A stretch of 64,000 nucleotides of DNA. It comes from Burkholderiales bacterium Ga0077543 (GTDB taxonomy: Bacteria; Pseudomonadota; Gammaproteobacteria; Burkholderiales; Burkholderiaceae_C). Within the stretch, counting starts at the first letter, position 1. Each line of letters starts with the position of its first letter. Made by a program: the position numbers and the translations under genes. Location: contig LNET01000027.1 of assembly GCA_001464055.1 (NCBI GenBank), forward strand, positions 1 to 64,000, read 5' to 3'. The notes below the pieces were generated by a model, which searched no databases, was not told where the DNA came from, and was given only the letters and a program-made list of their open reading frames with translations. This document shows positions 8,400-62,023 of this stretch, in pieces.

Positions 8400-8402
8400 G
8401 GC

Positions 8403-9059
8403 CTACAACCCGCCGCCGGTCACGGGCAGCACCACCGTGGCCGTGGCCGGCTCGCCCGACACCACCAGTGCCCGCTCCAGCGCCGCCGCACCGGGCGGCA
8501 TGGCCGGGTGCCAGGCCTTCAGTCGGTAGTTGCCCGGGGGCACGTCGGCCAGGCGCACGCGGCCGTCGGCGCCTGAAAGGCCGTGGTACGGGGTGTCGAC
8601 CACCACCACCCAGGCGACCATCTGGTCGTGGATGTTGCAGCCCAGCACCGCCACGCCAGGCCGGTCGAACACCACCGCGTTGGCCGGCACGCCGGTGTAC
8701 AGCTTCAGTTCGAAAGGCTTGGCCGGCGACAGCGAATACACATGGTGACGCACCTTGTCGCGGTTCGGGAAGCTCACGGCGCTGCCGGTGGGCAGCACGG
8801 TCACGCGCGGGGTGAAGCGCTTGTCGGCCTGCTCGATTTCCAGGCCGGCAAGTGGCCGGCTGGCAGCCCGGGCGCTGGCCGATTCGAGATAGACCACGGC
8901 CTCCAGCAGGGGCTTGCCGTCCTGCCCGTTCAGCTGCAGGTCCACCGTGGTGGCGCCAACGGGCAAAGCCGCGCCGGCGGTGACGGCAGCCAGCAGCAGC
9001 ATCAGGGCGAACGAGGGGCGCGTGGCCAGTCGCGAGAGTGGGCGCAGGAGGGGGCGCAT
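8403..9059 (-). CDS. Exported cupredoxin-like protein (methylamine utilisation protein-like)
   Basis: A 218-residue exported protein with a signal peptide to about residue 37 (ending GATTVD after a long hydrophobic core). A plastocyanin-type fold is suggested by the candidate copper ligands in RHHVYSLSP (about 103) and GCNIHDQM (about 140), giving the His-Cys-His-Met set of type 1 copper sites. A carboxypeptidase-regulatory-like segment (GADGRVRLADVPPGNYRL) follows. Such proteins are often named methylamine utilisation proteins, but no mau genes are present here. The GGDEF-EAL gene begins only three bases after this stop, so the pair is almost certainly co-transcribed. Confidence 0.75.
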   Translation of the reverse strand: MRPLLRPLSRLATRPSFALMLLLAAVTAGAALPVGATTVDLQLNGQDGKPLLEAVVYLESASARAASRPLAGLEIEQADKRFTPRVTVLPTGSAVSFPNRDKVRHHVYSLSPAKPFELKLYTGVPANAVVFDRPGVAVLGCNIHDQMVAWVVVVDTPYHGLSGADGRVRLADVPPGNYRLKAWHPAMPPGAAALERALVVSGEPATATVVLPVTGGGL

Positions 9060-9081
9060 GGCGGAGACGAAGTGGTGCGAA

Positions 9082-9125
9082 AGCGGGCGGGCGGGCAGGC
9101 AGGCGGGCAGGCAGGCAGGCAGGCG
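9082..9125. repeat. GGCA/GGCG tetranucleotide microsatellite
   Basis: About eleven consecutive four-base units of the form GGCG or GGCA lie 23 bases upstream of the cupredoxin start codon. A short echo follows at 9132-9142. Simple repeats this close to a start can slip during replication and alter spacing of promoter or leader elements. Confidence 0.7.
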
Positions 9126-9298
9126 GATGAACGGGCGGGCGGGACACGAATCCCGCGCTCACCCGCCTTTTCGGCAGCCCGACGGGTTCGCTTGAGGCCC
9201 ACGCGGTTTGCGTCGCGCTGCATCGGCAGGTTCAGGGCAGGGCCACGGGGGTTCGCCGCCGTCGCCGCAAGCCCGGGCGCCGCTGCGGCCTGGACTGG

Positions 9299-9334
9299 GG
9301 CAGCCTGCGGCCCCGGACGGTGCCGCAGGCTGCC
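9299..9334 (-). terminator. Hairpin after the amidase gene
   Basis: An inverted repeat with perfect 13-base arms (9299-9311 and 9322-9334) and a 10-base loop begins directly beyond the stop of the amidase gene, which is read on the minus strand. No T-run follows in that direction, so it may be a GC-rich terminator or an RNA-stabilising hairpin. Confidence 0.55.
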
Positions 9335-9337
9335 GTC

Positions 9338-10267
9338 TCAGGGCTTAGGCGCCGTTGCCGAGGGCAGGGGCGTCACCAGCACGTGCAGCAAGGCGGCGGT
9401 CTCGGCGTCGGGCTGGCCGCTGTAGTCGGTGGGGCGGTAGCGCATCTGGAACGAGGCCGTGACGTTCTTCAGCTCTTCGTCGAACACGCCGCTGGCCTTC
9501 AGTTCATACCCGTGTTTCGTGAAATTCTGCTGCCACCACGTGGCGTCGGGCGGCGCGGCCTCGAACACGGCGCGCTGCGCGGCCACCCGCGCGGCGTCGG
9601 GCCAGGGCGGGGTGATGCCGAGCTCGGAGAACAGCTTCCACGGGAAGGTGGGGCCGGGGTCCTGCTTGGTCTGTGGCTGGATCTCGGCATGGCCCAGGAT
9701 GCGCTCGGGCTTGATCTGGTAGCGGCGCACGATGTCCTGCACCAAGGGCACGAGCGCGTCGATCTGCCCCTGCGGGAACGGCAGGTACTCGCGCCTGCCG
9801 TCGGGCAGGATGCGCGCACCCGGGTGCACGATCTCGATGCCGATGCTGCTGGCATTCAGCATGCGGTTGCCCTGCCAGCTGCTGCGTCCGGCATGCCAGG
9901 CGCGCTGGAACTCGTCGACCAGCCGCATGATGCGCGGCGAGGCCTCGTCGGTGATGAGGTAGTGCGAGGACACCTGCTGCTCGGTCAGCACGCGGATCGA
10001 ATTCGGCAGGTCGAGCACGGTGTAGTGGATGATGAGGAACATCACCCGGCTGTCCTGGCCGCGGGCGGTGCGGCTGATGTCGATGGGGATGCCGCCCGGG
10101 GTGGTGAAAGGCACGTTGACGGGCACGGGCGGCGCCACCGCCGGGGCGGCTGGCGTCACCGGCGCAGGAACGGGCGTCGCAGCGCAGCCGGCCAGCACCG
10201 CCGCAACGGCGATGGGCAGCAGCCGCATCAGTGCGCCGTGCCGGCCGGGAAAGAGTTTGGAAATCAT
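9338..10267 (-). CDS. amiD: AmiD-like N-acetylmuramoyl-L-alanine amidase lipoprotein
   Basis: A 309-residue probable lipoprotein with lipobox LAGC (Cys28) and a proline-rich linker to about residue 60. An amidase-2 (PGRP-like) zinc domain follows, with IIHYT near 81, AWHAG, IGIEIVHPG and the late HAEIQPQTKQDPGP stretch that supplies a zinc His and catalytic Lys. A C-terminal segment resembles a peptidoglycan-binding helix bundle. It would cleave the sugar-peptide amide in anhydro-muropeptides at the outer membrane. The ATG overlaps the stop of the upstream kinase gene (ATGA), so the two are coupled and probably work in wall turnover. Confidence 0.85.
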   Translation of the reverse strand: MISKLFPGRHGALMRLLPIAVAAVLAGCAATPVPAPVTPAAPAVAPPVPVNVPFTTPGGIPIDISRTARGQDSRVMFLIIHYTVLDLPNSIRVLTEQQVSSHYLITDEASPRIMRLVDEFQRAWHAGRSSWQGNRMLNASSIGIEIVHPGARILPDGRREYLPFPQGQIDALVPLVQDIVRRYQIKPERILGHAEIQPQTKQDPGPTFPWKLFSELGITPPWPDAARVAAQRAVFEAAPPDATWWQQNFTKHGYELKASGVFDEELKNVTASFQMRYRPTDYSGQPDAETAALLHVLVTPLPSATAPKP

Positions 10268-11256
10268 GGGGATCCTTCGGTCACAGGCGGTACGGCGGCC
10301 AGCACCGCGGCCAGGCGATGGGCAGCTTGCTGCAGGCGATGGGCGTTCGTGCCTTCGGGCAGGGCGGCCCGCAGGCTGGCTTCGATGACCGGATGCAGGT
10401 CGAACACCCGGCCGGCCAGCGCCAGCGGCAACGCGCCGAAGCGCTGTTGCATGCAGTGCGCCAGCCGGGCGAGTTCCTGCCCGGCCTGCCGCAGCAGCGC
10501 CAACGCCCCTTTATCGCCTTCCTGGGCGGCGGCGGCCACGGCCAGCGCCAATGTACCGACTTCGCCGCGGCTGGCGCCGTACACCCTGGCCCGGGTGTGG
10601 GACCAGTCGCTGCCGCCCACCGCGGCAAACAGCTGCCGGCCCAGCGCCATGCGCTGGCCGGCGCCGGGTTCGGCGTCCTCGGCGCGCCAGACCCGGCACA
10701 GCGCCTGGCGCGCGATCCAGTGGCCGCCGCCGGCGTCGTCGATGACGGCGCCGCGGCCACCCGCGCGGTGCAGCTGGCCGTGGCCGTCGACGTGGGCGGC
10801 GATCGACCCGGTGCCGGCATAGACCACCGCGCCCGCGCCCGGGGCGAACGCGGCATGGCAGGCGAGTTCGATGTCGCTCATCAGCCGCACTGCCGCCGCT
10901 GGCAGGCCGAAGGGTGCGGCCAGCAGCTGATGCAGGGCGGCGGCGTCGGCCGTGGCAAAGCCGGTGAGACCGGCGACGATGCGCACGGGTTCGCCGGCAT
11001 GCCCTTCGAGCCGACACCGAAGCGCAACGTCGGCAACCAGCGCGGACACGGTCCGGGCCAGCGTGGCGCGGCCGGCGGCATCGGCCAGCAGCAGGCCGGA
11101 GACCCCGTCGACCTGGCCTTCGGCGCGCACCTGGCCAGCCTCGTCGGCCAGGGCCCAGCGGGTCTGCGTGCCGCCGCCGTCCAGGCCCAGGCCCCAGCCC
11201 GGAGGCGGCGCCGGCCTGTCGGCGGCAGGGTGCAATTCGGTGGTCACGGCGGACAT
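10264..11256 (-). CDS. BadF/BadG-type sugar kinase, probable N-acetylglucosamine kinase
   Basis: A 330-residue ASKHA-fold kinase with phosphate-binding loop GLGLDGGGTQTRWALAD near 22-38, adenosine-side motif AGTGSIAAHVD and GGRGAVIDDAGGGHWIARQA. This is the pattern of eukaryote-like GlcNAc kinases in the BadF/BadG/BcrA/BcrD family. I chose the ATG at 11256 because the ASKHA domain begins shortly after it. A longer upstream extension has no homology. The gene overlaps a peptidoglycan amidase gene by four bases and is divergent from a DacB-like gene, so phosphorylating amino sugar released from the wall is likely. Glucosamine kinase is an alternative. Confidence 0.78.
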   Translation of the reverse strand: MSAVTTELHPAADRPAPPPGWGLGLDGGGTQTRWALADEAGQVRAEGQVDGVSGLLLADAAGRATLARTVSALVADVALRCRLEGHAGEPVRIVAGLTGFATADAAALHQLLAAPFGLPAAAVRLMSDIELACHAAFAPGAGAVVYAGTGSIAAHVDGHGQLHRAGGRGAVIDDAGGGHWIARQALCRVWRAEDAEPGAGQRMALGRQLFAAVGGSDWSHTRARVYGASRGEVGTLALAVAAAAQEGDKGALALLRQAGQELARLAHCMQQRFGALPLALAGRVFDLHPVIEASLRAALPEGTNAHRLQQAAHRLAAVLAAVPPVTEGSP

Positions 11257-11289
11257 TGTGGCCGGGCCGTCGGGCCGACAATCCCGGGC

Positions 11290-12801
11290 ATGAGCCGACG
11301 CCTGCCAAGCACCCCCTTCGCCCTGCTGGCGGCCCTGTGGCTGGCCGGCTGCGCCACGCCCATGGCACCGCCGCCGCTGGCCGACGGCACCCTGCCCGCC
11401 CCGGTGGTGCAAGCCATGGCCCAGGCCGGGCTGGCCGCCGACAGTCTGGGCGCCGTGGCCCTGCCGCTGGACCATGCGGCCAAAGCCTGGCACTACCGCA
11501 GCGGCGTGCCGATGCAGCCGGGCTCGGCGATGAAGCTGGTGACCACGGTGGTGCTGCTGGACCGCCTGGGCGGCACCCACACCGGCCACACGCGGCTGCT
11601 GGCCGCCGGCCCGGTGGTGGGCGGCGTGCTGCAGGGCGACCTGGTGCTGCAGGGCGGCGCCGACCCCGACTTCGGCATCGCCCCCTGGTGGCTGCTGCTG
11701 CGCGAACTGCGCGACCAGGGCATCACCCGCATCAGCGGCGATCTCGTGCTCGACCGCCACCGCTACCGCCCGGCGCGGCTGGACATCGGCGTGCCGCCTT
11801 TCGACGAGCGACCCGAGAGCTGGTGGAACGTGATCCCCGACGCGCTGCCCATCGACCTGGGACTGCAGACCCTGGAACTGGTGGCCGACCACAGCACGCT
11901 GCGCGCGCGCGTCAAGCCGGCACTGGCCGGGCTGCGCGTGGACACCAGCCGCATGGCCTTGAACGACAAGCCTTGCACGAACTGGTCAGACGACTGGGTG
12001 ACGCCGCTGCGCCTGGACGAACCGGGCGCCGCACCCGCTGCAGCCCCTGGCGCGGTGCTGGTGCTGCAGGGCGCCTTCCCGCGCGGCTGCACACGCAACG
12101 AAAATCTGCAGGCCGTCGACCGCACGCGCCACGCCGGCCTGGTGTTCGCGCAGACATGGCGCGAACTGGGCGGCCAGTGGGACGGCCGCGTGCGCGAGGC
12201 CGATGCCGCTGCGCCCGAGACCCTGGTGGTGCTGGCCCAACACCGCTCGCGCCCCTGGGGCGAGATGCTGCGGACGATGGTGAAGACCTCGGACAACACG
12301 CTGGCGCGGCTGGCCTTCCTGGAGCTCGGCGTGCCGGCCATGGCCGCGCAGCCGCAGGCCACGACCCTGGACCTGGCACGCCAGGCGGTACAGGGCTGGT
12401 ACGCGCAGCAGGGCATCGAGGCACCGGGCCTGGTCGTGGACAACGGCTCGGGCCTGTCGCGCAGCGAACGCATCAGCGCCCAGACGCTGGCGCAGACCGT
12501 GGCCTGGGCCTGGCGCAGCCGCCACGCGCCCGACGTGCTGATGACGCTGCCCGTGGCCGGGGTGGACGGCACCATGCGCAACCGGCTGAAGGACAGCCCG
12601 GCCGCCGGCGTGGCACGGCTGAAGACCGGCACGCTGCGCAATGTGCGCGCGCTGGTGGGCGTGGCGGTGGACCCGCAAGGCCGGAGCTGGGCGCTGGCAG
12701 CGATGATCAACAGCGACGAGCACATCGCTGCCGGCCGCGCGGTGCTGGACCTGCTGGTCGACCGTGTCGCGCGCGGCGACCTGGCGCGGCCCGGCCGTTG
12801 A
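11290..12801 (+). CDS. dacB: D-Ala-D-Ala carboxypeptidase/endopeptidase (PBP4 type)
   Basis: A 503-residue low-molecular-weight penicillin-binding protein of the S13 family. A lipoprotein-like leader ends WLAGC (Cys21). The catalytic motifs are SAMK (Ser79, Lys82), SDN (334-336) and KTGT (445-448). The long insert between SxxK and SxN, with GGADPDF and SGDLVLDRHR, is typical of PBP4. It trims or cuts peptide cross-links in the periplasm. The gene is divergent from the kinase-amidase pair with 33 bases between starts, so the promoters must overlap and joint control of wall turnover is plausible. Confidence 0.9.
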   Translation: MSRRLPSTPFALLAALWLAGCATPMAPPPLADGTLPAPVVQAMAQAGLAADSLGAVALPLDHAAKAWHYRSGVPMQPGSAMKLVTTVVLLDRLGGTHTGHTRLLAAGPVVGGVLQGDLVLQGGADPDFGIAPWWLLLRELRDQGITRISGDLVLDRHRYRPARLDIGVPPFDERPESWWNVIPDALPIDLGLQTLELVADHSTLRARVKPALAGLRVDTSRMALNDKPCTNWSDDWVTPLRLDEPGAAPAAAPGAVLVLQGAFPRGCTRNENLQAVDRTRHAGLVFAQTWRELGGQWDGRVREADAAAPETLVVLAQHRSRPWGEMLRTMVKTSDNTLARLAFLELGVPAMAAQPQATTLDLARQAVQGWYAQQGIEAPGLVVDNGSGLSRSERISAQTLAQTVAWAWRSRHAPDVLMTLPVAGVDGTMRNRLKDSPAAGVARLKTGTLRNVRALVGVAVDPQGRSWALAAMINSDEHIAAGRAVLDLLVDRVARGDLARPGR

Positions 12802-51158: not shown

Positions 51159-51581
51159 TCAGGCCACGACGTTCTTGATGGGATGGCCGGTGGCGATGAG
51201 TTCGTCCAGCCGCTCCAGCAGCACCCGCCCCGGCTGGGCATAGGGGTCGAACGACGGGTGCTGCATCGGCACCACCGGGCTGCGGTCGGACAGCACCACG
51301 TGCGCCATCGTCCAATTTCCGAAGCGACGCTGTTGAATGTCGTCGACCAGCAGCACTTCCAGGTCCTTGTGGCGCGTGTCCTGCGCAATCCGGCCGTACA
51401 GCCGGTTGACGGCACTGCGCTCGCCTTCGAGCACTTGCAGGAAGAAGCCCTGGCCCTGGCAGAGCACGCCGGTGATGCCGTTCCTGGCGTTGAAGTCCAG
51501 CGCCGTGGCCAGGATGGAGCTGGTCATCATGGTGGTCTGCGGGCCGACGGATCGGCTCAGGTAGAGCATTCGGATCAGCAT
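51159..51581 (-). CDS. BLUF-domain blue-light receptor
   Basis: A 140-residue short BLUF protein that should bind FAD non-covalently and sense blue light. The key residues fall at exactly the spacing of AppA: Tyr7 (LIRMLYLSR), Asn31 (LDFNARNGITGVL), Gln49 (GFFLQVLEG), Trp90 and Met92 (FGNWTM). I chose the ATG at 51581 (MLIRMLYLS), since the BLUF fold begins there. About 45 residues follow the core, forming the usual capping helices. With no output domain it must signal by protein contact. A glutathione transferase gene follows after 17 bases. Confidence 0.92.
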   Translation of the reverse strand: MLIRMLYLSRSVGPQTTMMTSSILATALDFNARNGITGVLCQGQGFFLQVLEGERSAVNRLYGRIAQDTRHKDLEVLLVDDIQQRRFGNWTMAHVVLSDRSPVVPMQHPSFDPYAQPGRVLLERLDELIATGHPIKNVVA

Positions 51582-51705
51582 GGGCAGGGTCGGGTTCCGG
51601 AAAACAGGCGGGTGGTCGGAAAGATGCCGGGACAAGCAGGCAGTTTAGCCAGACCCGCCTGCCCTGCCGGCGCAAAAGCATCGCGTCGAACCCCTACCAT
51701 GCACC

Positions 51706-52974: not shown

Positions 52975-53096
52975 GGCCGAATCATCGCCTGCGCACCCGG
53001 CTTTTCGTGTTTACCCTGAGTACGAAAACCACCCTGATGGCGCTCTGTGAACCCGGGCCGCGCGATTGCGGCTTGACTGCAACCACTGGAGCTTTC

Positions 53097-53834
53097 ATGC
53101 GCAAACTTCTCATCGGCACCCTGCTGGCCCTCGGCGCGGCAGCCTCGGCCACGGCCGCCGTCAACTGCGGCAGCTTTGCCAACAACACCATCAACAGCTT
53201 CGTCAACGACGACGTCGAGGCCATCGGCATCACATGCACCATCGGCCCCAGCGGCTCGGTCAACGGCAACCTGACGCAAACTGGCGAGGGCAGCATCGTC
53301 ATCCGCGGCCGCATCAACGGCGGCGTCACCGAAGCCGGCAATGGCGACATCGTGGTCAATCGCGGTGCCAGCATCGGTGGCGACGTGTCGGAGTCCGACG
53401 GCGGCAACGTCGCGGTGCGCGGCGGCGCGGCCATCGAAGGCGTGATCGAGGAAGCCGGTGACGGCTCGGTCAACATCACCGTCGACGTGCCCGGCCTGGT
53501 GAAGGGCGACGTCTACGAGAACGGCAACGGCGGCGTCACCGTGAACGCCCTGGCCGGCAACTTCGAAGGCTCGCTGGTCGAGACCGGCCCGGGCAACGTG
53601 ACGGTGACCGTGGGTTTCGGCCTGTCGTTCAAGGGCGACGTCGAGGAACACGACGGCGGCAGCGTGACGGCCACGGTGAGTGGCTTCTTCGAAGGCAACC
53701 TGCGCGAGCACCTGGCCGGCAATGTCGTCACCACCGGCCCGGGCGTGTTCAAGGGCAATTCCGAGCACCAGCTGCCGGGCAGCTGCAGCAACGGCATCCT
53801 GAACTTCCAGGGTGCAGCCTGCAACCTGCTGTAG
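53097..53834 (+). CDS. Secreted short-repeat protein, probable beta-solenoid
   Basis: A 245-residue exported protein with a signal peptide (MRKLLIGTLLALGAAASATA). After a short cysteine-bearing cap (about 21-53) come eight to nine repeats of 19-22 residues with consensus [IVF]-x-G-[DN]-[VL]-x-E-x-G-x-G-x-[VI]-x-V. Examples are IGGDVSESDGGNVAVRGGAA and VKGDVYENGNGGVTVNALAG. Regular alternation of hydrophobic strand positions and Gly/Asn/Asp turns predicts a right-handed beta-solenoid, similar in spirit to bactofilins but exported. The last unit has two cysteines (GSCSNG, AACNLL) that may close the fold. No family is recognised. It is divergent from pfkA. Confidence 0.75.
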   Translation: MRKLLIGTLLALGAAASATAAVNCGSFANNTINSFVNDDVEAIGITCTIGPSGSVNGNLTQTGEGSIVIRGRINGGVTEAGNGDIVVNRGASIGGDVSESDGGNVAVRGGAAIEGVIEEAGDGSVNITVDVPGLVKGDVYENGNGGVTVNALAGNFEGSLVETGPGNVTVTVGFGLSFKGDVEEHDGGSVTATVSGFFEGNLREHLAGNVVTTGPGVFKGNSEHQLPGSCSNGILNFQGAACNLL

Positions 53835-53895: not shown

Positions 53896-54489
53896 TCAGG
53901 TGGTGGTTCTGCGCAGGCTGGCCTTGGTCAGTTGGAGTTCGACGAGGTTCGGCGTGAAGTGCAGGCCGATGTCGCTGGTGCCCGGCACGATCCCGAGACT
54001 GGTCTGGGCCACCCCTGCGGCCGTGGTCTTCAAGCCCATCGGCACCACGTCCGCGCCTTCCAGGTGCCAGACCTCGTGCCCGCCCGTGCAAGGCCGCACC
54101 TTCAGGTCCAGGGTGGCCACGATGCCGACGTCGTAACCGTTGTCGGTCATGTTGAAGATCACGCCGTTCTTGACGGTGTACTCGCCGGACTGGTGGCCGC
54201 TGTCGACGATGCTCGCCGTCAGACTCTGCAGGCCACCGTTCGACAGCACGACCAGTGTGTTCTGCGAGACGGGCTGCTTGCCCACGCCATAGGTGTTCTT
54301 CAGGTTGGCGGCCTGCGGCGTGTGCTTCGTGTATCTGCTCTTGTTCATGCGGTAGGCCCTCACGCGGGCATCGAACACCGCGTAGCCTTCATCCACCATC
54401 GCCTGCAAGGTCGGTGAACCGCCCATCACGAACAGGTGCTTGTTGGCGAAGCGGTTCTGCGTCGCGTTGTTGACCCAGTAGAGCGTCAT
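53896..54489 (-). CDS. Hypothetical protein, unknown family
   Basis: A 197-residue protein starting at ATG 54489 (MTLYWVNNATQNRFANKHLF). A longer frame exists but its upstream part is compositionally different. The body is beta-rich and polar: AYRMNKSRYTKHTPQAANLK, TLVVLSNGGLQSLTASIVDS, YTVKNGVIFNMTDNGYDVGI and GLHFTPNLVELQLTKASLRR. No signal peptide, membrane helix or known motif. Its Asn/Thr/Lys-rich codons stand out from the GC-rich surroundings, hinting at transfer. The 218 bases upstream hold no gene I can support. Confidence 0.6.
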   Translation of the reverse strand: MTLYWVNNATQNRFANKHLFVMGGSPTLQAMVDEGYAVFDARVRAYRMNKSRYTKHTPQAANLKNTYGVGKQPVSQNTLVVLSNGGLQSLTASIVDSGHQSGEYTVKNGVIFNMTDNGYDVGIVATLDLKVRPCTGGHEVWHLEGADVVPMGLKTTAAGVAQTSLGIVPGTSDIGLHFTPNLVELQLTKASLRRTTT

Positions 54490-54707
54490 TGGAAGTGCTT
54501 TCGTTGGTGGAACACGTGCGTCAGGCACGCGCTGAAGCCTGTTCCAGAGTTCGGTCGTGAAGCGGGGCTCACCATGATTCTGCGAGCGCAGCGCGCAGCC
54601 GGCGGCGACATCTGGCACCAGGGCCGGGCGGCATAGGTCCTTGACGACCTCGGTGGCAGTGTGCTGCGCGGCGGCAGCGCGTCACGGCACCCCTCGCGCC
54701 CGCGCGC

Positions 54708-55856
54708 TCAACCCGAGTTCATCGACGCGAACAGCGCCAGCACGACGAGCGCCAGCACCACCGCCAGCGCAATCTTCAGCGCGGAGAACGGCCGGTCGCC
54801 CTCGACCTCGCCGCTCTGGCCGTTCACCACCACGCGGTAAGGCTTGCCGCCGAAGCGGTAGCTGCCGATCCACACCGGCAGCAGCAGGTGCTTGAAGCGG
54901 ATGTCGTCGACCACCGTCTGGCGGCCGTGGATGCGCTGCTGGTCGCCGCCGATGTCGCGGCGGATGGCGTTGTCGATGGCACCCTGCATGCGGCCACGGG
55001 CTTCGGCGAAGCCCTGTTCCAGCCCGTGGCGGTAGACCTCGACGCTGAAGCCGGCCAACAGGTCGGGGGCGGGCGGGCGCAGCGCCGCCAGGTTCCAGCG
55101 GTCGAGCACCCGCGCCAGGTGCGCCGGGATCGACGGCGAACCCACCACCAGGATGTCGTCGAAGCCCACCGGCACCGCGCCGGCCGCGGGCGTCCAGTCG
55201 ACCACCGTGCGCCGGGCGTTGGCGCCGCCGCGCTGGTCGGCCACCTGGCGCTGCACGCCGCGTTCACCGCGGTAGGTGGTCAGGGTGCTGGCGTCGTAGG
55301 TCCACCAGGGCAGGTAGACGCCGCGGATGCCGTCGGCCTGGCTGACGCTGCGCTTGAGCGCATTCGGCGCGAACCAGCGGCTGGCCACCCAGCGTGCGAA
55401 CACCTGCTGCGCGGCGTTGCGGTCCAGCGCGAAGGGCAGCAGCGCCTGCGGCTGGATCAGCCGTTCCACATGCACCTGGTCGAGCAGCAAGGGCGTGGCG
55501 CAGAAGGCGCAATGGTCGCCCACCACATGGCCGTCGAAGCGGGTCTGCGCGCCGCAGGCCGGGCAGTCGACGACCTGCGCTTCCAGGCTGGGTTCACGCG
55601 CGGCCAGACGGCGCAGGGCGTCTTCGTAGTCCTGTTCGTGCAGGGCCAGGGCCTGGGCGTCGGCGGTGGGTGGCGGCAGCAGCCTGGCGTGACCGCAGGC
55701 GGCGCAGGCCAGGGCGCAGCGGCCGGGGTCGAAGGCCATGCTGGCGCCGCACTGGGGGCAGGGGAAGGCCTGGGGTGCGGCAGGGCGCGGCTCAGCCGAA
55801 TGGGCTGGTTGGGCCGACGGGGCGGCAGCGACAGGGTTTGCGGGGCTTGCGGGCAT
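54708..55856 (-). CDS. Zinc-ribbon membrane protein
   Basis: A 382-residue protein. A Pro/Ala-rich lead (1-30) is followed by two zinc-ribbon-like pairs: FPCPQCGASM with LACAACGHARLL, then VVDCPACGAQTRF with DHCAFCATPL. The central region (about 110-345) has VYLPWWTYDASTLTTYRGER and HLLLPVWIGSYRFGGKPYRV. A single C-terminal helix (about 358-380) anchors it. Similar proteins are often labelled TFIIB-type zinc-ribbon or superfamily II helicase-like, but no helicase motifs occur here. I prefer the ATG at 55856 because a longer start would overlap the upstream gene. Function unknown. Confidence 0.72.
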   Translation of the reverse strand: MPASPANPVAAAPSAQPAHSAEPRPAAPQAFPCPQCGASMAFDPGRCALACAACGHARLLPPPTADAQALALHEQDYEDALRRLAAREPSLEAQVVDCPACGAQTRFDGHVVGDHCAFCATPLLLDQVHVERLIQPQALLPFALDRNAAQQVFARWVASRWFAPNALKRSVSQADGIRGVYLPWWTYDASTLTTYRGERGVQRQVADQRGGANARRTVVDWTPAAGAVPVGFDDILVVGSPSIPAHLARVLDRWNLAALRPPAPDLLAGFSVEVYRHGLEQGFAEARGRMQGAIDNAIRRDIGGDQQRIHGRQTVVDDIRFKHLLLPVWIGSYRFGGKPYRVVVNGQSGEVEGDRPFSALKIALAVVLALVVLALFASMNSG

Positions 55857-55911
55857 CGGTGGCAAGTGTGCACCCGGTGCCGGGGCCTGCCCCAGCCGGC
55901 TTGGCAGGCTT

Positions 55912-56271
55912 TCAGCCCGCTTCGGCAACGCCCAGGCGTGGCGCGAAGTCGGTGTCGCGGATCTGCAGGTAGTCGTCGGTGGTGAAGCCGTCGTGGTCGT
56001 GTGCCAGCATCATCATTTCCTCGAAGATCTCGGGGAAGGCGCTGGTGGGGTAGATCTCGACATGCTCGGTGCGCGCCGTGGCCGTCCAGGGCCGGCCGGC
56101 CTTGGACGGCAGCATCACGCCGGCTTCGACGAACACGCAGTATTCGCCGGCGTGGAACAGGTCGCGCGGGGAGTGGTATTCGCCGACCTCGACGCCGTCG
56201 ATGACGAGCACTTCGTAGTCGTCGACCTTCTTCACGCCGTCAACCTTGCGGACGGTGACCAGCTTGCGCAT
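55912..56271 (-). CDS. Small protein resembling the N-terminal OB domain of RNA ligases
   Basis: A 119-residue soluble protein. Its first half, MRKLVTVRKVDGVKKVDDYE then a VLVIDGVEVGEYHSPRDLFH stretch and GEYCVFVEAGVMLP, has the order and spacing I associate with the N-terminal OB-like domain of DRB0094-type RNA ligases. No nucleotidyltransferase domain (KxDG) follows. The second half (TATARTEHVEIYPTSAFPEI, then a Met/His/Asp-rich helix) is unfamiliar. It is either a stand-alone domain or a truncated ligase. The similarity is from memory and needs a profile search. Confidence 0.55.
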   Translation of the reverse strand: MRKLVTVRKVDGVKKVDDYEVLVIDGVEVGEYHSPRDLFHAGEYCVFVEAGVMLPSKAGRPWTATARTEHVEIYPTSAFPEIFEEMMMLAHDHDGFTTDDYLQIRDTDFAPRLGVAEAG

Positions 56272-56324: not shown

Positions 56325-56753
56325 CTACTTGATCGCCGTCTGGTCACCGCCCGTGGGGACCGTGGCTTCGGCCTTCAGGTTGCCATTGCGCACCAGCATG
56401 TAGGCAATGATCGCCGTCTTGGCAGCGTCGTCGATCTTCGCCGGGTCGTCGAAGGGCATCAGCAGCTGCACGTAGTCGAACAGGCCCTTGGCGTTGCCGA
56501 ACTTGGCCAGGTCGTGGCCGGGCCCCCAGATCGGGCGTGGAAAGACGCTGGCGTCGCGCCCCATGACGCCATGGCACTGCGCGCATTGCTGCTGGTACAG
56601 CTTTGCGCCCGCCAGCACCTGCGCGCCCGCGCCCGCCGGGGGTGCGGGCGGCGGCGGGCTGGCGGCGGTGGCGTTGGCGGCCATCGCCAGGCCCGCCAGC
56701 GCCCAGCCAAGCAGCGCCGCAGGGCGGGCGGCCTTCTGGGGCAGCCCTGTCAT
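56325..56753 (-). CDS. sorB: Sulfite dehydrogenase cytochrome c subunit
   Basis: A 142-residue monoheme cytochrome c with a signal peptide (to about residue 31), a Pro/Ala-rich spacer, heme site CAQCH at 57-61 and a late axial-Met region around LLMPFDDPAKIDD. Its ATG overlaps the stop of the molybdenum subunit gene (ATGA), the coupling expected of SorA-SorB type sulfite:cytochrome c oxidoreductases. It would accept electrons from the molybdenum centre in the periplasm and pass them to a soluble cytochrome or oxidase. The extended monoheme layout also fits SoxD-like partners. Confidence 0.85.
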   Translation of the reverse strand: MTGLPQKAARPAALLGWALAGLAMAANATAASPPPPAPPAGAGAQVLAGAKLYQQQCAQCHGVMGRDASVFPRPIWGPGHDLAKFGNAKGLFDYVQLLMPFDDPAKIDDAAKTAIIAYMLVRNGNLKAEATVPTGGDQTAIK

Positions 56754-58111
56754 GCGACGCGGATGCGGAACTTCGGGACGGCGCCGTTGGCCATGCCCAG
56801 CTGGTTGAAGGGCACGGTCTCGGGCTGGACGTTGCCGGCCATGTCGATGCCGCGGGTTTCGATGACGTGGTCGCCCGGACGCGCGTCCCAGTGGAAGTCG
56901 AATCGCACCCAGGTGTAGCGGCCCAGGTTCGGACCCTGGATGTGCGCACGCTGCCAAGGGCCGCGATCGACGCGATATTCCACTTCGCGAATGCCGTGCT
57001 GCGGCGCCCAGGCATAGCCCCGCACCAGCTGCCGCCCAGCACTCATGCGCGGCCATTCGCCGCGCTTGAGCGGGTAGTTCGCCGGCACCGAGGGGCTCTT
57101 CTCCAGCACCAGGGGCACGGTGATGATCGTCTTGATGGGCATCCAGGTGACCATCGGCCCCTTGACGTCGGCGGCCGTGATGCCGCCGATGAATTCGTCG
57201 GTGGCGCCCACCGCGGGCGCGGCATAGTCGGGGCCGATGTAGACCTCGCCCCGGGTGTTCAGGCGGCACCAGTGCTGGTGGGTGTCCACCCGCATCTCGG
57301 TCAGCCACTTGATCGACGCAGTGCCGCCCCAGCCCGGAACGACCAGGCGCACCGGCGCGCCATGGTCCGGCGTCAGCGGGTTGCCGTTCATCCTGAAGCA
57401 CAGGCCGATGTCGTCGGCGCGGGAAACGATGTCGGCCACGGGCATGGGCCGGCCCATGTCGGCCCCGTCCACGCCCGACCAGAACAGCGCAGACTTCGCG
57501 TCCTTCTTCAGGCCCACCAGCCCGAAGATGTGCGATAGCGGCACGATCTGCCATTCGGCCTGGCCGATGGCGCCCAGCACCCAGTTGCCGCCGGCCACCT
57601 GCATCTGGTCTTGCTGTTCCCAGAACAGGCTGCGGCCGTTGCCATGGCATTCCATGGTGGCGATGACGGTGCGCGAAGGCATCTTCACCAGGTCGCCGTA
57701 GCCGATGTCGATGCTGCGCTCCAGGCCGTTGCCGTGGATCTTCATGCGCCACTGCTTCGGATCCAGCACCGGCTTGGCCTCGACCAGCGGCGTGGGGTAG
57801 TGGTTGCGGACGTAGAACTCCTCGATCGGCGTGATGAAGGTGTTGAAGTCCCAGTAATTGCCGCTGCGAACGGTGGCGCCGATGTTGAGCAGGCGCGAGT
57901 CGTCCTTCAGCAGCGCTCGGCGCGGGGGCGCGGCCGGGGCAGCCGCAGGAGCGGGGGCAGGGGTCTGCGCCTGCGCCACCCCGGGTGCTGCCGCAGCAGC
58001 ACCGAAGGCGGCTGCGGACACGAAGAAGCGCCTGCGGTCGGACTGGGGCCCGATCTGGAGTGCTTCTTCAACCAGGGCGCGTTCCTGCGCCTGCTGCTGC
58101 TGTGATGCCAT
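56750..58111 (-). CDS. sorA: Sulfite dehydrogenase molybdenum subunit (SorA/SoxC type)
   Basis: A 453-residue periplasmic oxidoreductase of the sulfite oxidase family. A Tat leader has DRRRFFVSAAAFGAA near 25-39. The molybdenum-ligating Cys155 is in ATMECHGNGRSLF. HGAPVRLVVPGWGGTASIKW and the C-terminal dimerisation domain with YRVDRGPWQRAHIQG follow. It should oxidise sulfite to sulfate (or a related sulfur substrate) and pass electrons to the cytochrome encoded next. I chose the ATG at 58111, which has AGGAG seven bases upstream. A near-consensus sigma-54 promoter lies at 58174-58190, and the divergent neighbour operon encodes a sigma-54 activator. Confidence 0.9.
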   Translation of the reverse strand: MASQQQQAQERALVEEALQIGPQSDRRRFFVSAAAFGAAAAAPGVAQAQTPAPAPAAAPAAPPRRALLKDDSRLLNIGATVRSGNYWDFNTFITPIEEFYVRNHYPTPLVEAKPVLDPKQWRMKIHGNGLERSIDIGYGDLVKMPSRTVIATMECHGNGRSLFWEQQDQMQVAGGNWVLGAIGQAEWQIVPLSHIFGLVGLKKDAKSALFWSGVDGADMGRPMPVADIVSRADDIGLCFRMNGNPLTPDHGAPVRLVVPGWGGTASIKWLTEMRVDTHQHWCRLNTRGEVYIGPDYAAPAVGATDEFIGGITAADVKGPMVTWMPIKTIITVPLVLEKSPSVPANYPLKRGEWPRMSAGRQLVRGYAWAPQHGIREVEYRVDRGPWQRAHIQGPNLGRYTWVRFDFHWDARPGDHVIETRGIDMAGNVQPETVPFNQLGMANGAVPKFRIRVA

Positions 58112-58173
58112 GTCGTGTCTCCTGCTGGTGAGCCGGACTCGGGTAAATGCTTGTGGCCCGGCCCATGCCAAAC

Positions 58174-58190
58174 CGCAAGATGCAAGCCAA
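58174..58190 (-). promoter_or_regulatory. Sigma-54 (-24/-12) promoter of sorA
   Basis: On the minus strand the sequence TTGGCTTGCATCTTGCG matches the sigma-54 consensus TGGCacG-N4-TTGCa, with GG and GC exactly ten bases apart. Transcription would begin near 58163, leaving a leader of about 52 bases to the sorA ATG with its AGGAG site. Two copies of CCATGCCAAA (58163-58172 and 58210-58219, plus-strand reading) flank it and might be regulator contacts. The nearby NtrC-type gene supports use of this promoter. Confidence 0.72.
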
Positions 58191-58234
58191 AGCCGCAGCC
58201 TGGAGAACGCCATGCCAAATGGGAAGAAGACGTA

Positions 58235-59131
58235 ATGAATGGCCGTTCATGGCGCGCAGACGCGTTACGGAAAAGTAACCGGCGCACCTGTCTGCGTGGC
58301 TTGGCCGGGTTCGTCGGCAGCGCCATGCTGCTGGCGCCGGCGCGCCCGGCCACCGTGCTGCGCTTCGGCACGACACCGGTCTTCCTGAACGAACAGATCG
58401 GTCTGCTGGACCGCTGGCAGCGCCACCTGGAAAAGCGGCTGGAACGTCCGGTGCGCTTCGTGCAGCGTGGCAGCTACCGCGAGATCGTCGACCTGCTGCT
58501 GGGCGACGGTGTCGAGGCCGCGTGGCTTTGCGGCCACCCGCTGGTGCTGCACGAACAGCGCCTGGCCGTGGTGGCCACGCCGCGTTACCAGGGCGCGCCG
58601 CTGTACCGGTCGCACCTGATCGTGCCCGCCACCGACACCTCGACGCAACAGGTCACCGACCTGCGGGGCCGGGTCTTCGCCTACAGCGACCCGCTGTCGA
58701 ACAGCGGCTATCTGGTGCCCGGCGCCGAGATCGCGGCCAGCGGCGCCAACGCGTCCACGTTCTTTCGCCGGACGTTTTTCACCTTCAGCCACCGCAAGGT
58801 GGTGGACGCCGTGCGCGCCGGCCTGGCCGACGGTGGCGCTGTCGACGGCTATGTGTGGGACACGATGGCTGCGCAGCAGCCCGACAGCGTGGCTGGGCTG
58901 CGGGTGGCCTGGCGCTCGGCGCCGCACGGCTTTCCGCCGGTGGTGGCCAGGCGCAACTGGCCCGGTACCGAGATGCGGCAGCTGGCCGACACCCTGCTCG
59001 GCATGGGTCGCTGGCCAGAGGGCCAGGCCGTGCTGCAGCGGCTGAACATCGACGGTTTCGAGGAACCCCGGGCCGGGCAGTTCGACAGCATCCGCGAGCT
59101 GCTGCGCATGACCGGGCGCGGCGGCTCATGA
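58235..59131 (+). CDS. PhnD-like periplasmic binding protein, putative sensor component
   Basis: A 298-residue exported protein of the PhnD/type 2 periplasmic-binding fold. The leader has twin arginines (NRRTCLRGLAGFVGSAM), so Tat or Sec export is possible. The mature part starts VLRFGTTPVFLNEQIGLLDR and contains FVQRGSYREIVDLLLGDGVE and the PhnD-typical FAYSDPLSNSGYLVPG. No phosphonate transporter genes are present; instead the stop overlaps the histidine kinase start (ATGA). That context makes it a sensor accessory, comparable to the PhnD-like sensing domain fused in TtrS tetrathionate kinases. The ATG at 58235 has a weak GGAAGAAG site upstream. Confidence 0.82.
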   Translation: MNGRSWRADALRKSNRRTCLRGLAGFVGSAMLLAPARPATVLRFGTTPVFLNEQIGLLDRWQRHLEKRLERPVRFVQRGSYREIVDLLLGDGVEAAWLCGHPLVLHEQRLAVVATPRYQGAPLYRSHLIVPATDTSTQQVTDLRGRVFAYSDPLSNSGYLVPGAEIAASGANASTFFRRTFFTFSHRKVVDAVRAGLADGGAVDGYVWDTMAAQQPDSVAGLRVAWRSAPHGFPPVVARRNWPGTEMRQLADTLLGMGRWPEGQAVLQRLNIDGFEEPRAGQFDSIRELLRMTGRGGS

Positions 59132-60660
59132 CGATGCGGCTGCGCGACCTGAGCTGGCGGCTGCGTGTGCCGCTGGCCATCACCACGGTCATCCTGGTCA
59201 CGGAAGTGGTGGTCACCACCCTGCTCGTCACGCGCGCCTTGTCCGACGCCCGCAGCGACCTGGAAGCCAGCGCCCGCAGCCTGACGACGGTACTGGCGCG
59301 TTCGCTGCGCGACCCGCTGCTGCGCGACGATCTGTGGCTGGCTTTCGAGGTGGTGAGCACGCCGCTGGCCGCGCGCGACAGCGACAGCCCGCTGCAGGGG
59401 GTGGTGGTGCTGGACGCGGTGCAGCAGGTCTTCGTGGCCAGTGAACCGCGGCGTGTGCCGGTATTGACACCCGCGGCGGAACTGCCCGAGCCACTGGCCG
59501 GCATCGCTGGCCGCGCCGCCGCCGACGCCGGCTTCCACTTCGCGCTGGGCCAGGGTGCGGCAGGGCCGGAACTGGCCGCGGCCGGGCCCATCCTGGCCGA
59601 GGACGGCAGCCGCCTGGGCACGGTGGTGCTGGACTACGACGGCGCCGTGTACGCCCGGCGCCTGCGCTCGGCCGTCGTCGAGGTCGCCCTGGTCAGCGTG
59701 CCCGGCCTGCTGCTGCTGGTGCCGCTGGGCTGGTATGCCGGCAAGCGACTGGCCGAACCCCTGGTGCAGATGACCCAGGCCCTGTCGCGGGTGAGCCACG
59801 AGTCGCCAGAACAGGTGCAGCGGCTGCTGCCTCCGGAAGGCGGCGACGAGATCGGCCGCCTGTCGACTCAGGCGCGCCAGATGCTCGACGGCCTGGCGCG
59901 CAAGGCGGCACTGGAAGCCGAGGTCATGGCCTCGGAACGGCTGGCGGCGGTGGGGCGGGTGTCGGCGGCCATCGCCCACGAGATCAACAACCCGCTGGGC
60001 GGCATGCTCAACGCCATCGACACGGCCATGCGCCATGGCCACCCCGACCCCGTGTCGCTGAAGACCTTCGGCCTGCTCCAACGCGGCCTGCAACAGATAC
60101 GTGCCACGGTGGGCGCCTTGCTGGTGGAAGCGCGGTTCGACTCGCCCCGGCTGAACGGCCAGGACTGGGACGACCTACGGCTGCTGATCCAGCCCGACGC
60201 CGCCAGGCACGGGCTGCAGCTGGGCTGGCAGATCGAACCCGCGGCCAACCTGGAAGCAGCGCTGCCCGGTCACGAGGTGCGCCAGCTGGCGCTGAACCTG
60301 TTGCTGAACGCCATCGCGGCCGCCCAGGCACCGGCCCGGCCGGACGCGGCATCGAACAGCGGCGCTGCCGTCGAGTTCACGGTGGCACGATCGCCGGGCC
60401 TGCTGGCCGTCGTGGTGGGCAACACGGGGCCTGCCCTGCCACCCGACCGGTTGGCGCGCATGTTCGAGCCTTTCGTGGCGACAGGTACCGGCGCCCGTGC
60501 AGGCGCGGCCGGCGGTGGCCTGCACCGGCACGGCCTGGGCCTGTGGGTGTGCTGGCAGATCGTGCAGCGCCTGAAGGGCAGCATCGACGTGGCCAGCGAC
60601 GGAGAATGGACGCGCGTGTCGGTGGCACTGCCGGTGCCCGACGCCCTGCCTGAAGGATGA
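59128..60660 (+). CDS. Membrane sensor histidine kinase
   Basis: A 510-residue kinase. The first helix is about 15-37, the periplasmic region about 38-185, the second helix about 190-210 and HAMP about 211-265. The dimerisation/phosphoacceptor helix has AIAHEINNPLGGMLNAIDTA with the phospho-His. The ATP-binding domain has LALNLLLNAIAAA (N box), VVVGNTGPALPPDRL and GLHRHGLGLWVCWQIV. The G1 box reads NTG where DxG is usual, so the Asp contacting adenine is Asn. It starts inside the PhnD-like gene stop (ATGA) and ends four bases before the response regulator gene, so the three form one signalling operon. Confidence 0.9.
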   Translation: MTMRLRDLSWRLRVPLAITTVILVTEVVVTTLLVTRALSDARSDLEASARSLTTVLARSLRDPLLRDDLWLAFEVVSTPLAARDSDSPLQGVVVLDAVQQVFVASEPRRVPVLTPAAELPEPLAGIAGRAAADAGFHFALGQGAAGPELAAAGPILAEDGSRLGTVVLDYDGAVYARRLRSAVVEVALVSVPGLLLLVPLGWYAGKRLAEPLVQMTQALSRVSHESPEQVQRLLPPEGGDEIGRLSTQARQMLDGLARKAALEAEVMASERLAAVGRVSAAIAHEINNPLGGMLNAIDTAMRHGHPDPVSLKTFGLLQRGLQQIRATVGALLVEARFDSPRLNGQDWDDLRLLIQPDAARHGLQLGWQIEPAANLEAALPGHEVRQLALNLLLNAIAAAQAPARPDAASNSGAAVEFTVARSPGLLAVVVGNTGPALPPDRLARMFEPFVATGTGARAGAAGGGLHRHGLGLWVCWQIVQRLKGSIDVASDGEWTRVSVALPVPDALPEG

Positions 60661-60664
60661 ACCC

Positions 60665-62023
60665 GTGCCGCAGCTGCTGCTGATCGAAGACGACCCCATC
60701 ATGGGCGAGTCGCTGCTCGACCGTTTCGAGCTCGAAGGTTTCGAGGTGCGCTGGTCGCAGACCGTGGAACAGGCTGCCGTGCTGCTGGAGCAGTCGGCCT
60801 TCGACGCCGTGGTGAGCGACGTGCGCCTGCCCGATGGCTCGGGCGAGCGCCTGTTCGAAAGCCGGCTGCGCAGCACGGGCCCCTTGCCGCCCTGGCTGTT
60901 CATCACGGCCTTCGCCTCGGTCGATCGGGCCGTGGCCATGCTGCAGGCCGGTGCGCGCGACTACGTCACCAAGCCCTTCGACATTGCCGAGCTGGTGAGC
61001 AAGGTGCGCGCTGCCGTGGGCAGCCAGGGAGAAGCGACCCCGGCCCCGTCCGGCAGCGAATACGGCTGCACCGAAGATGGCCCTGGCGAGGCAGCGCTGG
61101 GCCCGTCGACCGCGATGCGCCTTCTGGCCGCGCAAGCGCGCAAGCTGGCCCTGCGCGCGCGCACTGTGCTCATCACCGGCGAAAGCGGTGTCGGCAAGGA
61201 AGTGCTGGCGCGCTACCTGCACGGCCTGGCGCATCCGCAGGGCGCTGCGCCTTTCGTGGCGGTGAATTGCGGGGCCATTCCCGAAACCCTGATCGAAGCC
61301 GCGCTGTTCGGCCACGAGCGTGGCGCCTTCACCGGCGCCGACCGCCAGCGCCGCGGCTACGTCGAACAGGCGCAGGGCGGCACCCTGTTCCTGGACGAGA
61401 TTGCCGAACTGACACCGGCCATGCAGGTGCGGCTGCTGCGGGTGCTGCAGGAACGCCAGGTCCAGCGGCTGGGTGCCGAGGCACCACTGGACGTCGACCT
61501 GCATGTCATCTGTGCCACCCACCGCGACCTGCAGCTGCAGGTGCAGCAGGGCCGCTTCCGCGAAGACCTGTACTACCGCATCCACGTGGTGCACCTGCGC
61601 GTGCCACCGCTGCGCGAAAGGCCGGGCGACGTGCTGTGGCTGGCCCAGCGCTTCCTGCTGGAGCAGGCCCAGGCCGGCTTCGAGGCGCCCCGGCACCTGA
61701 CAGCCAGTGCCCGCGCCGCGCTGATCGGCCACGCCTGGCCAGGCAATGTGCGCGAGCTACAAAACCGCGTCGAACGCGCCTGCGTGATGGGCGAAGGCCC
61801 GGAAGTTTCCGCGGCCGACCTGTTCGAGGAACACGAGCCCGCAGCCCCAGCCGCCGACCTGCCCACGCTGGAAGCTTTCATGGCCGAGGCAGAGAAGGCC
61901 TACCTGGTGGCCGTGCTGGCACGCTTCGATGGCCGCGTGGGACTGGCCGCCCAGGCGCTGGGTGTTTCGCGCAAGACGGTTTGGGAGAAGAGCCGGCGTT
62001 ACGGACTGCGGGCCGACGACTGA
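60665..62023 (+). CDS. NtrC-family sigma-54-dependent response regulator
   Basis: A 452-residue activator. The receiver domain (about 1-120) has the acidic pocket LIEDDPI, phospho-Asp in VVSDVRLPDGSGE and the conserved Lys in YVTKPF. The AAA+ sigma-54 domain (about 145-375) has Walker A GESGVGKE, the sigma-54-contacting GAFTGA loop, Walker B GGTLFLDEIAEL and the arginine-finger region. A Fis-type helix-turn-helix (about 415-450) reads VGLAAQALGVSRKTVWEKSR. The start is a GTG at 60665, four bases after the kinase stop. The sigma-54 promoter of sorA is the obvious local target. Confidence 0.93.
   Translation: MPQLLLIEDDPIMGESLLDRFELEGFEVRWSQTVEQAAVLLEQSAFDAVVSDVRLPDGSGERLFESRLRSTGPLPPWLFITAFASVDRAVAMLQAGARDYVTKPFDIAELVSKVRAAVGSQGEATPAPSGSEYGCTEDGPGEAALGPSTAMRLLAAQARKLALRARTVLITGESGVGKEVLARYLHGLAHPQGAAPFVAVNCGAIPETLIEAALFGHERGAFTGADRQRRGYVEQAQGGTLFLDEIAELTPAMQVRLLRVLQERQVQRLGAEAPLDVDLHVICATHRDLQLQVQQGRFREDLYYRIHVVHLRVPPLRERPGDVLWLAQRFLLEQAQAGFEAPRHLTASARAALIGHAWPGNVRELQNRVERACVMGEGPEVSAADLFEEHEPAAPAADLPTLEAFMAEAEKAYLVAVLARFDGRVGLAAQALGVSRKTVWEKSRRYGLRADD

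Follow-up and report, generated by a model that had tools for sequence, protein, structure and literature searches.

Bactofilins are cytoplasmic proteins with unstructured tails, situated at the inner face of the membrane, which polymerise end to end into non-polar filaments. The calcium loops of RTX proteins and of the antifreeze protein MpAFP from Marinomonas primoryensis have the form GGxGxD or GxGxD, and RTX proteins lock outside the cell, where calcium is high. The corner of curli subunits reads Q-x-G-x-G. In an excerpt of PMC12448750, bactofilins are described as right-handed beta-helices with a triangular cross-section, and a small subset of them carries an N-terminal transmembrane domain. 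Curli solenoids are left-handed, according to a part of PMC10192328, and in the ice face of MpAFP, Thr and Asn form a flat array, as stated in an extract of PMC5014055. Among the papers listed by the literature searches, none names an exported bactofilin in its title or abstract; the nearest report is PMC9957290.

The gene considered here is located in the window, i.e., the whole analysed stretch of 64,000 nucleotides (positions 1 to 64,000 of contig LNET01000027.1 of Burkholderiales bacterium Ga0077543, forward strand), and the source bacterium belongs to the Rubrivivax group. In our opinion, with a probability of about one half, the gene encodes a small acidic Sec-exported protein, a capped right-handed beta-solenoid that is an offshoot of the bactofilin rung, contains an internal Glu ladder and plays a non-enzymatic, structural or adhesive role. 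The following features were recognised:

53088..53091, plus strand: GGAG, the likely ribosome-binding site, 5 nt 5' of the ATG
53097..53834, plus strand: the whole gene of the 245-residue solenoid protein, predicted to be exported; open frame, stop codon included
53097..53156, plus strand: probable Sec signal peptide, residues 1-20, recognised by inspection; pLDDT below 50 over residues 1-18; no lipobox
53157..53258, plus strand: N-terminal cap, residues 21-54, with C24 and C47 in 13 of 13 members
53259..53747, plus strand: eight full rungs, residues 55-217, with the motif hxGxhx[EQ]xxxGxhxh
53748..53831, plus strand: partial ninth rung (FKGNSEH) and C-terminal cap, residues 218-245, with C230 in 13 of 13 members and C242 in 12 of 13

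The window gene is the only match in its own 5.19-Mb genome. Twelve homologues, down to about 50% identity, were found elsewhere; they have 244-246 residues when counted from ATG and keep every rung. The rough Nei-Gojobori dN/dS ratio was below 1 in all 15 pairs computed out of 78 possible ones, being 0.17-0.64 in 14 of them and reaching its highest value, 0.99, between the window protein (P0001) and L021. Judged from sequence comparison, the window frame is a real gene, whose length and rungs are all kept by the homologues. The alignment used below (A2) consists of the window protein and these 12 loci, 13 rows in total, the row of L022 being without its first Met. GGA is present in 12 of 12 aligned leaders; the thirteenth, that of L022, lies outside the leader alignment.

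The start of the window protein shows a hydrophobic core followed by small residues before the mature end (ATA-AVNC, by eye), and a lipobox is absent in all 13 family members. Inspection of the sequence, rather than a signal-peptide program, suggests that the protein is exported by the Sec route. The mature protein is small (about 22 kDa) and acidic, with pI values of 4.05-4.19 across the 13 sequences; Trp is absent in 11 of 13 members and single in the other two, and Tyr occurs 0-3 times. C24 and C47 may form a disulfide in the N-terminal cap. A disulfide in the C-terminal cap is not universal, since C242 is replaced by Ser in L019. The signal peptide, N-terminal cap and cysteine-bearing last unit named in the original prediction were all recovered, the first by eye and the caps both in the alignment and in the AlphaFold2 model.

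Rungs of the window protein start at residues 55, 73, 93, 113, 135, 156, 178 and 198, with a partial one at 218, so that the spacings are 18, 20, 20, 22, 21, 22, 20 and 20. The repeat had been described as a 20-residue one; its great regularity stands, with eight full rungs and a partial ninth, and the unit length proved to be 18-22 residues and not exactly 20. The motif [IVFL]xGx[VLI]x[EQ]x[GDLQ]xG occurs in 8 copies in the mature protein, as compared with 0.0136 copies on average and never more than 2 in 5000 residue shuffles, a lenient control because the motif was derived from the window protein itself.

Two places of the coil are strictly conserved. Position 7 is Gln in rung 1 (13 of 13 sequences) and Glu in rungs 2-8 (91/91 cells), corresponding to Q61, E79, E99, E119, E141, E162, E184 and E204 of the window protein, and position 11 is Gly in all 104 cells of rungs 1-8. 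Thus, the predicted conserved Glu column was found in all 13 sequences and on all eight rungs, with Gln in the first. Hydrophobic positions 1, 5, 13 and 15 are less strictly conserved than this ladder (0.69-0.85), while positions 4, 6, 8, 10, 12, 14 and 16, which alternate with hydrophobic ones, have average conservation of 0.51-0.67; position 2 is exceptional (0.87), with a series E-K-E-K over rungs 6-9, each residue in 13 of 13 sequences. These rung averages were calculated without rung 9. The parity of the motif, and not coordinates, suggests that the Glu side chains face inward at a corner, and this speaks more for a structural ladder than for a mineral face on the outside. The suggestion that the column could form an ice-like face found no support in the sequences: TxT was observed in only 4 of 65 rung cells and [TSN]x[TSN] in 36 of 65, positions 14 and 16 of the window protein reading NxT, TxN, TxT, TxT and VxT in rungs 4-8. 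Loops of the RTX type (GGxGxD or GxGxD) were found in 0 of 13 sequences.

AlphaFold2 gave confident models of two different lead sequences, the window protein with a 9-row alignment (pLDDT 90.4, pTM 0.83) and its most distant homologue, from Lysobacterales (about 50% identity), with a 13-row alignment (pLDDT 91.3, pTM 0.83). In both models, DSSP shows 2-3 short strands per coil, and the anticipated beta-solenoid is the fold predicted. Foldseek searches gave a best E of 0.13 against the PDB and 0.054 against a viral library. A slower structural aligner was then applied to Foldseek's own candidates (141 and 103 chains), and among the matches listed, the Ca2+-dependent antifreeze domain of MpAFP (3p4g) ranked first for both models, with Z 17.0 at 2.5 Å over 200 residues for the window protein and Z 17.4 at 2.9 Å over 214 residues for the homologue. 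Secretion domains and autotransporters (EtpA, TibA, HMW1, UpaB) followed within 1 Z of 3p4g, and then lyases and tailspikes. Bactofilin was not among the best 50 of the 141 and of the 103 candidates, which is no evidence against a bactofilin.

The same lists bear on handedness. Many right-handed helices among the matches listed fit at 2.5-3.5 Å over about 190-225 residues and others at 4-8 Å, whereas left-handed ones, namely CsgA (8c50) as well as YdcK, GlmU, NeuO and OatWY, which we take to be left-handed, fit only at 8.9-12.9 Å. The model is therefore right-handed. Inversion of solenoid handedness by AlphaFold2 with thin alignments was reported for curli (in a part of PMC10192328), and as the present alignments are thin (9 and 13 rows), the right-handedness of the natural protein remains a prediction.

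The model resembles region IV of MpAFP, a right-handed solenoid with coils of about 19 residues, as compared with 18-22 here. Unlike MpAFP, the window family has neither GxGxD loops nor a conserved TxT/TxN face, and the window protein stands alone, whereas region IV is a domain of a giant adhesin. Like curli CsgA, the window protein is a solenoid, exported by prediction, with a polar ladder beside a Gly-rich corner; unlike CsgA, it has Glu in place of a Gln/Asn ladder (Gln in rung 1 only), a right-handed model and caps. Curlin was absent from the seven Pfam families to which the 13 members gave matches at E up to 10. Neither a TpsA domain nor a C-terminal barrel was found in this 245-residue protein, which is without a Pfam match.

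The profile libraries searched leave the family without a name, and the confident match to a known family that would have refuted the original prediction did not appear. For the window protein, Pfam gave nothing at E up to 10 and PHROGs no match; in NCBIfam none was significant, the best being FapB at the chance level (E 0.25, 10.9 bits of 190). Rfam gave nothing in the window, and a sequence search of solved structures gave nothing better than E 0.065. A phage or plasmid origin was considered and rejected: no relative was found in viral contigs, scanned with two peptide patterns, or in phages; among 72,556 plasmid records, there was one matching record, a distant one (E 3e-4).

A single-sequence search matched 10 of 148 genomes of relatives, or 9, own genome included, after dropping L010, a spurious relative with 29% identity over part of the query and no profile match in its genome. 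With the 13-row profile, matches were obtained in 8 of 81 genomes of the genus, in 6 of 399 of the bacterial family (four full-length and two distant), and in 1 of 399 of the order and 1 of 398 of the phylum, the last two being each time the own genome. These genome searches start from a loose first look and can miss genes, and the absence counts are not exhaustive, because a PF04519 search of the own genome missed a frame that scores 27.3 bits directly. A scan of 84,980 species, one genome each, gave the 12 loci; it relied on two peptide patterns and would overlook relatives that lack them. The loci belong to Rubrivivax (six, including R. albus), Methylibium, Aquabacterium, a beta-proteobacterium and a Burkholderiales bacterium (one each) and two metagenome-assembled genomes named Gammaproteobacteria, from Steroidobacteraceae (67%) and Lysobacterales (50%). 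The copies in the latter two may be explained by horizontal transfer or misbinning. From these comparisons, the gene appears rare and patchy, yet old enough to have diverged to half of its residues. It represents a narrow family, unnamed in the libraries searched, with a known fold and a function that we infer.

The connection with bactofilins was looked for at several levels. None of the 13 members reached the bactofilin cut-off (PF04519, 27.9 bits); two had sub-threshold matches (L011, 24.1 bits; L017, 21.6 bits), and one other matched best with the FapA solenoid family (E 0.014). The connecting protein is WP_223172723.1 (P0002), 180 residues, from a Microbacterium plasmid, annotated as a polymer-forming cytoskeletal protein. 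It belongs to PF04519 at 1.8e-18 and matches the window protein at 8e-15 in a single comparison and the family profile with 97.5% probability. With composition correction off, it scored 73.6 bits against P0001, while 1200 shuffled copies gave at most 46.2 and the reversed sequence 39.3; with the correction on, it scored 57.0 bits, and four bactofilin-like proteins, which came from the P0002 phylum search and were judged by eye, scored 16.5-25.4. Among 398 genomes of the phylum, the best match of P0002 was the window gene (6.9e-11), followed by one at 1.6e-6. P0002 shares with the family a signal-like start and rungs with Gln first and then Glu (QIGKG, ESGTG, ERNAG and so on); it differs in its annotated length of 180 residues and in having no Cys, rung spacing alternating between 18 and 20, a score above the bactofilin cut-off and a different phylum. 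Since P0002 matches both sides, the family is in our view an exported branch of the bactofilin rung. The link runs through this one intermediate, and repeat likeness within one fold can be convergent.

Like bactofilins (PF04519 / IPR007607), the family has the rung hxG[DN]hx...hxh and, in the model, a right-handed coil. Unlike them, it is predicted to be exported, has a longer corner E-x-[GDN]-x-G, an invariant Glu ladder and Cys-bearing caps at both ends, and the window protein carries a signal peptide (by inspection) and has no long disordered tail (by pLDDT). The family is not a bactofilin by the PF04519 cut-off or location nor, probably, by polymerisation. The original prediction of bactofilin-like rungs in an exported protein agrees with the P0002 link, the sub-threshold PF04519 matches in 2 of 13 members and the export signal seen by inspection.

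Larger proteins with signal-like starts, solenoid stretches and weak matches to the family profile, L071 and L072, occur in the same bacterial family. In L072, a sub-threshold PF04519 stretch (22.8 bits) is followed by AbfB repeats and DUF6701 (PF20419), a domain that we take to be tied to MSHA proteins. The solenoid stretch of L072 is similar to the window family in its signal-like start and weak match (70% probability); it differs in being a part of a large multidomain protein and in showing no Glu ladder by eye. That solenoid stretches occur in surface-type proteins like these speaks for a role outside the cell. Two other bactofilin-like proteins were observed. L060 (G000:C55:112263-112496), of the same genome, encodes a repeat protein with a signal-like start and VxGxVNQ-like units, having a sub-threshold bactofilin score of 22.5 bits. 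The exported-looking product of L028 794-2113 (minus strand) has hydrophobic C-terminal segments and scores 27.3 bits with PF04519, the cut-off being 27.9; the gene divergent from it presumably encodes a SYLF-domain protein.

The surroundings of the gene were compared using 133 called genes from the last 24 kb of the window and the 12 loci, three of which have short flanks; the gene caller missed the target gene itself in L012 and L020. No neighbour family occurs in more than 4 of 13 loci, so a conserved operon was rejected and the gene looks like its own unit. Response-regulator receiver domains are situated near the gene in 4 of 13 loci (27-32% identity, unspecific). A 6-phosphofructokinase gene lies upstream of the window gene in divergent orientation; L014 and L018 have it in the neighbourhood of the gene, too (3 of 13 loci, 76-89%). 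Other neighbours recur in two loci at most. L014 shares three further genes with the window, L011 and L017 share a release-factor-like gene, and L013 and L020 have in common a sigma-70-type factor, a small protein and a TPR protein; one weak neighbour pair connects L014 and L019. The regions concerned in the L013-L020 pair are 6849-12735 and 1-2454, respectively; the TPR protein of L013 has a CHAT domain, and a subtilase gene adjoins the gene there. The neighbourhood gives no clear functional hint.

Other genes of the window were noted. The stretch 53896-54618 (minus strand) encodes a 240-residue protein for which Pfam gave nothing at E up to 1; it is absent from the corresponding place of L014, the closest relative, in which a homologue of 54708-55928 is the next called gene. 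A BLUF blue-light sensor protein (PF04940, 9.8e-28) is encoded at 51159-51635 (minus strand), overlapping a longer called frame in another reading frame. The stretch 56750-62023 contains a molybdopterin oxidoreductase gene followed by that of a phosphonate-type periplasmic binding protein, as well as adjoining frames that, by inspection, resemble sensor-kinase and response-regulator genes.

In the leader, positions 53042-53075 of the window contain GCTCTGTG, followed by a possible GC hairpin just 5' of the ribosome-binding site, and a similar element with different letters is located upstream of several homologues. Leader folding gave z below -3 in 4 of 13 leaders, but this fell to 1 of 13 when the ends were set slightly differently and a partial shuffle was used. 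In the hairpin consensus, built on 7 of 13 leaders, both sides were changed in 3 of 11 pairs. Base pairing of the Shine-Dalgarno sequence was not above that of shuffles, and sequestration of the ribosome-binding site by the hairpin was rejected. The element CCCTGAGTACG is located upstream of two genes of the genome, the window gene and another exported bactofilin-like one (control 0). A shared regulon was rejected, too: CCCTGAGTACG occurs 30 times in 23 of 81 genus genomes, compared with 54 times for the reversed pattern, which points to chance, and four of its places (L029, L030, L031, L048) are the same coding stretch by eye.

Several other explanations deserve consideration. It is possible, although in our opinion doubtful, that the fold is the one proposed and the likeness to bactofilins is a result of convergence, the family having arisen by its own repeat duplication. 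The failure of all 13 members to reach the PF04519 cut-off would agree with this, as would the 16.5-25.4 bits of the four bactofilin-like proteins against P0001 and the preference of one member for FapA (E 0.014); the match of P0002 to both sides, far above shuffles for one and above the cut-off for PF04519, speaks for common origin. An unlikely explanation is a stacked calcium site, in which the carboxylates of E-x-G-x-G and Gly carbonyls would hold one ion per pair of turns and the protein would be locked only outside the cell. Seven consecutive invariant Glu residues and one Gln at one place of the coil, a pI of 4.05-4.19 and the first rank of a Ca2+-dependent domain for both models (Z 17.0 and 17.4, tied with others within 1 Z) are consistent with such a site. 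However, no GGxGxD or GxGxD is present in the 13 sequences, a common fold shows no function, and the residue of rung 1 is Gln, not Glu.

Rather improbable is an exported filament former, of bactofilin or functional amyloid type, stacking end to end in the periplasm or on the surface. Its rungs would be related to those of polymer-forming bactofilins, its E-x-G-x-G corner resembles the Q-x-G-x-G of curli, and CsgA is among the matches listed with Z 15.3 and 15.6, though at 9 Å; the FapB amyloid subunit of NCBIfam was matched at the chance level (E 0.25). On the other side, both ends bear caps with Cys, all 13 members have the same number of rungs, no curlin family was matched by the 13 members at E up to 10, and the model is right-handed while curli are left-handed (PMC10192328, in part). 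We give very little credence to a protein that binds ice or minerals by a flat Thr/Asn face, in spite of the first structural rank of an antifreeze domain, the NxT to VxT pairs in rungs 4-8 with 36 of 65 [TSN]x[TSN] cells, and an architecture joining a bactofilin-type domain (pfam04519) with an ice-binding one (pfam11999), given in a survey of ice-binding proteins (PMC9957290): TxT occupies 4 of 65 cells, the face differs among homologues (Leu, Ile, Val, Arg, Asp, Lys), and the two recorded habitats, a pond and groundwater, are not icy. Equally remote is a carbohydrate-active beta-helix of the lyase or epimerase type. Many matches with Z 12-14 are indeed lyases, epimerases and tailspikes, but the best carbohydrate-enzyme family, Glyco_hydro_79C, was matched by one member at E 1.1, Trp is absent in 11 of 13 members and single in two, with Tyr 0-3, and the strictest polar column is a regular Glu ladder and not one catalytic cluster.

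According to the preferred explanation, a stand-alone exported offshoot of the bactofilin-type rung would form a right-handed coil of eight full rungs and a partial one, closed at both ends by Cys-bearing caps, in which one corner was lengthened to E-x-[GDN]-x-G (L in one rung). The Glu column would most likely be situated at this corner, at the end of the second strand, with its side chains directed inward, and the ladder would keep neighbouring turns in register. A carboxylate pointing inward at every turn must be satisfied by NH groups of the corner backbone or by cations; the Glu carboxylates may form hydrogen bonds with backbone NH groups of the Gly-rich turn, possibly together with a bound cation. 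Capping at both ends and the unvarying number of rungs make it probable that the protein is a discrete unit and not a growing filament. It would act in the periplasm, at the cell surface or in the matrix, as a structural or adhesive, non-enzymatic component. The lack of RTX loops, the scarcity of TxT (4 of 65 cells) and the absence of Trp from 11 of 13 members leave calcium loops of known type, ice binding and ordinary sugar binding unsupported, and the most likely remaining role is that of a stable, acidic, non-enzymatic envelope or matrix protein. A bolder version, which we regard as quite improbable, is a capped extracellular branch of the bactofilin rung that holds one metal ion per step in the Glu column and constitutes a calcium-locked rod. 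No description of such a capped, cation-stacked rod was found in the literature on exported bactofilins, and nothing relevant was found on Glu ladders.

Known bactofilins form filaments in the cytoplasm. If a relative of theirs is indeed exported, closed at its ends and constant in its number of turns, their rung would have found a second use outside the cell; a perfectly conserved Glu column also offers a clean test of what keeps a beta-solenoid in register. The protein is small and has few cysteines, so that a single structure together with a melting curve could be enough for both the reuse and the register. A family left blank in the profile libraries searched would also receive a name.
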